Positions 34,414-35,027 of a DNA stretch of 35,027 bases are shown piece after piece (positions within the stretch are counted from its first letter, which is position 1; every line of letters begins with the position of its first letter). Below the pieces are notes generated by a model. That model saw only the letters and a program-made list of their open reading frames with translations. It ran no database searches and was not told where the DNA came from. The DNA comes from Fibrobacter sp. GTDB taxonomy: Bacteria > Fibrobacterota > Fibrobacteria > Fibrobacterales > Fibrobacteraceae. The DNA is taken from the NCBI GenBank assembly GCA_017412605.1, contig JAFPWY010000002.1:1-35027 (forward strand), in the 5' to 3' direction. The position numbers and the translations under genes were made by a program.

Positions 34414-34522
34414 TTTTTCCCTTCTTAGTTATCAATGAATATATAAAAATCGGCTAGGATGCGCTAGATTTTCCCAAAAAAAGCACTATTCCAAGCGTTT
34501 ATTTGCAATATTTGAACCCCCT

Positions 34523-34547
34523 CGGGGTATAGCTCAGCCTGGTAGAG
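34523..34547 (+). pseudogene. Truncated 5' copy of tRNA-Pro
   Basis: Twenty-five bases match the first 25 of tRNA-Pro at 34611 with one change (A for G at position 7). The match then stops in the D arm. The 20-odd bases upstream (atatttg, ctcgggg) also resemble the tRNA leader. It is a broken duplicate, 88 bp before the intact gene. Confidence 0.8.
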
Positions 34548-34610
34548 ACACTAGAATTTCCTAGAAAACAACACCTTTTTGGACATTTATTTTCTATATT
34601 TGTGCAACCT

Positions 34611-34684
34611 CGGGGTGTAGCTCAGCCTGGTAGAGCGTCTGCTTTGGGAGCAGAATGTCGTCAGTTCGAATCTGGCTACCCCGA
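34611..34684 (+). tRNA. tRNA-Pro (anticodon TGG)
   Basis: The 74-nt cloverleaf has acceptor CGGGGTG pairing with TACCCCG (last pair G-U), anticodon loop TTTGGGA giving TGG, T stem GTCAG/CTGGC with TTCGAAT, and discriminator A. CCA is not encoded. It reads CCA and probably CCG codons. Confidence 0.95.
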
Positions 34685-34721
34685 TAAACAAAGGACCCCC
34701 TTGCGGGGTCCTTTGTTTATC
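34683..34721. terminator. Long perfect hairpin after tRNA-Pro
   Basis: Seventeen bases (34683-34699) pair perfectly with 34705-34721 around a 5-nt loop; the core is GGACCCC/GGGGTCC. It overlaps the last tRNA base. The upper strand ends in TTTGTTTAT, so it can stop transcription either way. Confidence 0.8.
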
Positions 34722-34741
34722 GATAATAGACAGTGAGAACT

Positions 34742-34874
34742 GACGAAGTCAGTTCGACAAAATACGCGTATGAACGAAGTGAATAAAAGCGTATTTTGCG
34801 CGGCATCCGTAAGGATGACGCCCGAAGGGCAAAATGGAGCAAAGCGACATTTTGCTATCTGGCTACCCCGCCAA
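34742..34874 (+). repeat. 133-bp repeat, copy A, ending in tRNA-Pro 3' sequence
   Basis: Identical base for base to 34895-35027. It opens gacgaagtcagttcga, contains several hairpins (CAAAATACGC/GCGTATTTTG, CAAAATG/CATTTTG, GCCC-GAA-GGGC) and ends atctggctaccccg, the last 14 bases of the tRNA-Pro before its discriminator. No gene is seen in 34685-35027; this repeat fills most of it. Confidence 0.92.
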
Positions 34875-34894
34875 CCACAATCTCCAAACAGAAC

Positions 34895-35027
34895 GACGAA
34901 GTCAGTTCGACAAAATACGCGTATGAACGAAGTGAATAAAAGCGTATTTTGCGCGGCATCCGTAAGGATGACGCCCGAAGGGCAAAATGGAGCAAAGCGA
35001 CATTTTGCTATCTGGCTACCCCGCCAA
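34895..35027 (+). repeat. 133-bp repeat, copy B, reaching the window edge
   Basis: Second exact copy, offset 153 bp from copy A with a 20-bp non-repeated spacer (34875-34894). It may continue past the edge, so the copy number is unknown. Confidence 0.92.

Follow-up and report, generated by a model that had tools for sequence, protein, structure and literature searches.

Tandem, RtT-like repeat units behind tRNA genes of Fibrobacter with a layout akin to the E. coli tyrT repeats

Why does a stretch of Fibrobacter DNA end in two identical repeats that each carry the 3′ sequence of the tRNA gene beside them? The window, by which we mean the whole 35,027-nucleotide stretch that was analyzed, contains tRNA-Pro(TGG) close to its right end. 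The original prediction reported 133-bp exact repeats 3′ of this gene and regarded each as a tRNA 3′ end that is split in the T-loop by a 99-bp hairpin segment and tandemly copied. Both statements were reproduced. The two copies, located at 34742–34874 and 34895–35027, are identical at 133 of 133 positions with a start-to-start period of 153 bp. The sequence ATCTGGCTACCCCG was located at 34670–34683 within the tRNA, and again at 34857–34870 and 35010–35023, while GTCAGTTCGA was located at 34660–34669, also within the tRNA, and at 34748–34757 and 34901–34910. These two blocks are denoted B′ and B, respectively; B consists of the 5′ strand of the T-stem plus TTCGA, and B′ extends from T-loop nt 59 through the acceptor end. 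They are contiguous across the T-loop in the tRNA, while 99 bp, denoted x, separates them in the copies. The motifs CAAAAT and ATTTTG, which had been assumed to bound the inserted segment, are the outer ends of hairpin arms and not the ends of an element. The features of the array were assigned as follows.

34610–34685 (+): tRNA-Pro(TGG), the host gene of the array (ARAGORN; Rfam tRNA, 63.7 bits)
34660–34669 and 34670–34683 (+): T-arm halves B and B′, respectively, within tRNA-Pro(TGG)
34682–34722 (+): intrinsic-terminator-like hairpin between the tRNA and unit 1, an inverted repeat with 18-bp perfect arms
34737–34757 (+): H1 of unit 1, composed of inverted B (34737–34744), a GAA loop and direct B (34748–34757); read from the sequence, with the H1 pattern occurring genus-wide behind tRNAs
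34758–34856 (+): x of unit 1, 99 bp, assigned from its fold and from a match of the x-only model R3 at 34758–34854 (E 2.8e-9)
34758–34854 (+): hairpins of x in unit 1, namely H2 (34758–34798), H3 (approximately 34799–34821), H4 with CCCGAAGGG (34821–34829) and H5 (34830–34854)
34857–34870 (+): B′ copy closing unit 1 (T-loop nt 59 to acceptor end), a direct repeat of 34670–34683
34891–34910 (+): H1 of unit 2, read from the sequence
34911–35009 (+): x of unit 2, the same as x of unit 1 by repeat identity and by model R3
35010–35023 (+): B′ copy closing unit 2, read from the sequence, after which the contig breaks off within the array

The 133-bp exact repeat covers less than the true unit. Position 35027 is the last base of the contig (C8), so that the assembly interrupts the array; at least three further copies, 95–98% identical and the last of them truncated, were located at the end of contig C12, which we infer to adjoin C8 in the genome. 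The array region was predicted to fold much more stably than its shuffled versions (z = −6.15). An Rfam scan of the window detected the tRNA alone above noise. Upstream of the array, a partial copy of the tRNA-Pro upstream region and 5′ end (tcggggtatagctcagcctggtagag) was also observed at 34468–34547; this fragment with its leader lies 88 bp ahead of the real gene and exhibits 74% identity over 80 bp.

The unit is composed of B′, a terminator, inverted B′, inverted B, GAA, B, and x in this order, and is followed by the next B′. The x segment comprises the hairpins H2, H3, H4, and H5. Each unit is approximately 150–210 bp in size and contains no genes. The B and B′ letters of each unit match those of the adjacent tRNA, which was observed across Fibrobacter for at least six tRNA genes, namely Pro-TGG, Pro-CGG, Ser-CGA, Gly-CCC, Gly-GCC, and Ala-GGC. 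In the window's genome, Pro-CGG, Gly-GCC, and Ser-CGA also carry downstream units with B and B′ of their own tRNA. At the unit junctions, x is preceded by the T-loop sequence TTCGA of that tRNA (TCCGA in Gly-GCC) and followed by the 3′ half of the T-arm. Because the same unit stands behind other tRNA genes with those tRNAs' own T-arm letters, the array is not a product of chance. The letters corresponding to GTCAGTTCGA track the neighboring tRNA in six different tRNAs, indicating that this match is more than a local hairpin. In the loci that were read, a terminator hairpin stands ahead of unit 1, and a comparison of orthologous loci showed that the tRNA gene takes its 3′ end from B′ and the terminator of the proximal unit.

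Two further arrangements were observed beside the full units. Mini-units, in which nothing but a short hairpin or loop separates an inverted B′ from B′ and no other parts are present, were located downstream of full units at Pro-TGG (L056, L098, and L087) and Ser-CGA (L292 and L297). In addition, tRNA-Arg-ACG of the window's genome (L034) is accompanied by a direct repeat of approximately 190–200 bp that includes the T-arm, acceptor end, and terminator. Its hairpin-rich insert contains an imperfect inverted T-arm, and the repeat is possibly a different relative of the units.

The distribution of the units was examined using two kinds of query. A 21-nt pattern of H1 gave matches in 53 of 68 Fibrobacter genomes (110 matches versus 22 for the reversed control), and nearly all of those fetched had a tRNA upstream in the same orientation, with the nearest match typically 51–69 nt beyond it. 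Gly-CCC and Ala-GGC joined the list of host tRNAs through these genus-wide matches. The x-only model R3, which was built without tRNA letters, gave matches in 41 of 42 Fibrobacter genomes, with a tRNA upstream at almost every locus fetched. The original prediction had proposed to search the genome for x at other tRNA 3′ ends, and named x lying elsewhere without tRNA flanks, with the GTCAGTTCGA match explained by the local hairpin alone, as its refutation. In the window's genome, the x-only model returned nothing beyond the tRNA-linked arrays and one contig start bearing a Pro-CGG 3′ end, which is probably the far side of the Pro-CGG array; together with the tRNA-specific letters of GTCAGTTCGA, this outcome did not refute the prediction. 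Beyond Fibrobacter, the one real array observed follows Pro-CGG in a sister genus. On viral contigs, a looser pattern gave no tRNA-linked unit among the fetched matches of those listed, and a stricter H1+H4 pattern matched 46 contigs, of which none had the match behind a tRNA and none had the full hairpin. A literature search on tandem repeats at Fibrobacter tRNA genes returned nothing relevant. Fibrobacter assemblies often break inside the arrays, which leads to undercounted copies and leaves parts of some arrays on separate contigs. Array-associated contig ends were observed for contigs C8, C12, C7, and C3 of the window's genome (G000), and comparable ends occur in other Fibrobacter assemblies. 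A single recent local duplication, another origin that had been suggested for the repeats, is not supported for these units, which constitute a genus-wide structured class with a layout akin to E. coli tyrT/RtT.

The 178-bp repeats of E. coli tyrT/tyrV (RtT, RF00391) are likewise arranged in tandem behind a tRNA gene and end in its 3′ sequence. Descriptions of the tyrT repeats date back to the late 1970s, and the usual view takes them for an RNA by-product; the E. coli repeats also contain an annotated RNA, rttR. They have the form GGGGAAGGAT-GA-(H1)-x-ATCCTTCCCC with CCCGAAGGG and GNA loops, and the order that they have in common with the Fibrobacter units is inverted B′, inverted B, loop, B, H2-H3-CCCGAAGGG-H5, and B′. 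Unlike the E. coli repeats, the present units belong to a different phylum and their host tRNAs are those for Ser, Pro, Gly, and Ala; x is approximately 100 nt long versus approximately 68 nt, the H1 loop is usually GAA versus CGACT, and the terminator before the units is a Fibrobacter feature. The Rfam RtT model, whose curated gathering cut-off is 45 bits, gave 41 sub-threshold matches at E ≤ 1 in 42 Fibrobacter genomes, the best of which scored 37.6 bits (E 1.6e-5). Of the 30 loci fetched, 27 lie immediately downstream of a tRNA. The cut-off was passed in 0 of 42 and 0 of 106 genomes; the window's genome gave no match at E ≤ 1, and the remaining genera of the family gave none at E ≤ 0.1. In the reciprocal direction, a Fibrobacter covariance model applied to E. 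coli placed the four repeat units at the top, with scores of 33.7 to 18.1 bits versus 4.1 bits for the next match, and the x-only model ranked the same four first (18.8 to 15.4 bits; next 7.0 bits). The Fibrobacter units have both the tandem position behind a tRNA with its 3′ sequence and reciprocal covariance-model matches. As no unit reached the RtT cut-off, they are named RtT-like and not filed as RtT. Relatives of RtT have been reported near tRNA genes in Pasteurellaceae (PMC4986893).

The arrays also bear resemblance to mobile systems. As in elements that integrate into tRNA genes by a tyrosine recombinase, the tRNA 3′ end is duplicated as a direct repeat, the tRNA is restored, and the junction lies in the T-loop. 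The original prediction had considered attachment-site remnants, of which the attachment-site-like geometry is retained here, while a single integrative element with its integrase is not, since a unit of 150–210 bp is too short for an integrase gene. Unlike tRNA-integrating elements, the units are gene-less, stacked in tandem, and equipped with an internal inverted T-arm and hairpins. It is very improbable that they are scars of ordinary integrative elements, that is, attR/attL remnants of phages or islands. Such scars would leave direct repeats of the 3′ end beside a restored tRNA, and tRNA genes are the usual targets of integrative elements; however, the units are uniform, their fold is conserved across tRNAs and genomes, their downstream flanks are often conserved and not island-like, and the listed matches in viral contigs included no genuine unit. 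Integron attC and CRISPR arrays are similar in that they are ordered and the newest unit adjoins a fixed leader, which is the tRNA in the present case. The attC site functions as folded single-stranded DNA, which is related to the units by analogy only. Unlike in integrons and CRISPR, no linked integrase or Cas genes were seen, there is no cargo and no R/L core consensus, and the repeat is a locus-specific tRNA sequence. The attC core RYYYAAC...GTTRRRY was not found at the unit junctions, which are tRNA T-loops. A Y1 transposase (PF01797; IS200/REP-type) was separately considered as a mover and rejected, as it is absent from the window's genome and present in only 17 of 41 genomes.

Comparison of orthologous loci showed that extra units adjoin the tRNA, while older units decay distally. 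At Ser-CGA, the window's genome has one additional tRNA-proximal unit compared with G021, with flanks that are 92–97% identical. At Pro-CGG, G042 has three units versus one in G045; the common unit is distal, and the two extra units of G042 are tRNA-proximal. The single Pro-TGG unit of G012 (L064) is truncated at the same point as the last unit of the array in the window's genome. In G036, an entire subtype-B unit, terminator included, lies between tRNA-Pro-CGG and a resident B′-terminator-subtype-A unit, and this resident unit is nearly identical in G018. G018 carries a subtype-B-like unit further downstream, so that the difference between the two genomes could also reflect a reshuffling of existing units. 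Downstream units are often without a terminator or abruptly cut off. At another Pro-CGG locus (L061 of G007), two x segments of different subtypes are joined exactly inside one T-arm with no B′ between them, and this one case, which is given no weight here, might hint at exact cutting at the B/x and x/B′ boundaries.

Such differences might also arise among passive tandem repeats, which would have originated anciently at a few tRNAs and changed through unequal exchange or slippage at B′, with functionless hairpins kept by arm-to-arm templating. This explanation is possible, though we consider it unlikely. A B′ repeat is present at every boundary, the set of host tRNAs is mostly constant across the genus, no enzyme is linked, and new copies are often near-identical to their neighbor, as observed in the window's genome for the Pro-TGG units (100%) and the Ser-CGA units (2 differences in x), all of which agree with passive copying. 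It is less compatible with the occurrence of different x subtypes and different terminators side by side at one tRNA, with x subtypes that are common to different tRNAs, and with the similar x containing CCCGAAGGG in E. coli, which implies a long-term constraint.

The hairpins themselves provide information on whether the fold is that of DNA or RNA. Among 37 distinct x segments, 36 were predicted to fold with z < −2 (mean z −5.1), and compensatory changes were found for 20 of 42 consensus pairs in one aligned subtype. The loops are mainly C-GNA-G triloops (87 observed versus 8.1 in shuffles), followed by GNNA tetraloops. Loops of the C-GNA-G type give unusually stable DNA mini-hairpins (PMC4686876). 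The H2 stems contain 303 Watson-Crick, 0 G·T, and 3 A·C pairs, while terminators behind tRNAs of the same loci contain 1183, 62, and 6 such pairs, respectively, and tRNA acceptor stems contain 344, 25, and 2. The H1 stems contain 7 G·T, 5 A·C, and 32 other pairs, the last of which would fit the G·A pairs of a Gly-type stem, and the H5 stems contain 8 G·T and 1 A·C. As H1 and H5 thus include some G·T pairs, the wobble argument rests on H2, for which zero G·T is also compatible with the templated correction of passive repeats. Taken together, the GNA triloops, H2 without G·T, and the terminator ahead of the units favor a DNA-level role over RNA folding, which suggests that selection acts on the DNA. 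A structured regulatory RNA, namely small RNAs of the RtT type derived from tRNA transcripts and acting, for example, in amino-acid limitation responses, appears distinctly unlikely. It would account for the covarying structure and for the same layout as RtT, of which RNAs were detected on Northern blots in Actinobacillus (PMC4986893), and it was for E. coli rtT that Bosl and Kersten (1991; cited in PMC4986893) put forward a role in amino-acid limitation. In Fibrobacter, however, the terminator hairpin separates the tRNA from the unit, triloops dominate, H2 is without G·U pairs, and the unit sequences vary strongly between species.

We therefore propose, at about even chances, that the units are RtT-like gene-less DNA modules that accrete at the tRNA T-loop via recombination in B′. 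Comparison provides for this proposal the location at tRNAs, the match to the own tRNA, the bounds formed by B′, the covarying hairpins, and the whole-unit differences beside the tRNA. A new unit would enter at the T-loop through recombination within the B′ block, much as an element integrates into a tRNA gene and restores it. The tRNA would consequently remain intact and older units would be pushed downstream, where they may lose their terminator and decay. The conserved fold may work as DNA, whether as a cruciform or as a folded single strand, and be recognized, protected, or copied in this process. A recombinase, if any, would act in trans; neither a recombinase gene nor an excised circle nor a clean empty site was found. 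These negative results speak against the proposal, as do the subtype-B-like unit of G018, the G·T pairs in H1 and H5, and the annotated rttR RNA of E. coli. Furthermore, the B′ homology alone (approximately 14–17 bp) could permit enzyme-free unequal exchange, and simple integration leaves the match of a unit to a new tRNA unaccounted for. A further reading, in which the units are gene-less mobile cassettes moved by an enzyme as folded single-stranded DNA, always inserted in the T-loop beside the tRNA, supplying its 3′ end and terminator, and forming one class together with the tyrT repeats of E. coli, is tentative and in our estimation doubtful.

The tyrT-like layout is now recognized in another phylum, behind several tRNA genes and in nearly every Fibrobacter genome examined, in a rumen bacterium. 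A puzzle so far confined for the most part to E. coli and related bacteria hence becomes open to comparison, because the same layout in Fibrobacter together with unit gain between close relatives provides a comparative system for separating mobility, DNA folding, and RNA function. The arrays account for the breaks that some Fibrobacter assemblies show downstream of tRNA genes, and an array unit can supply the 3′ half of a tRNA gene.
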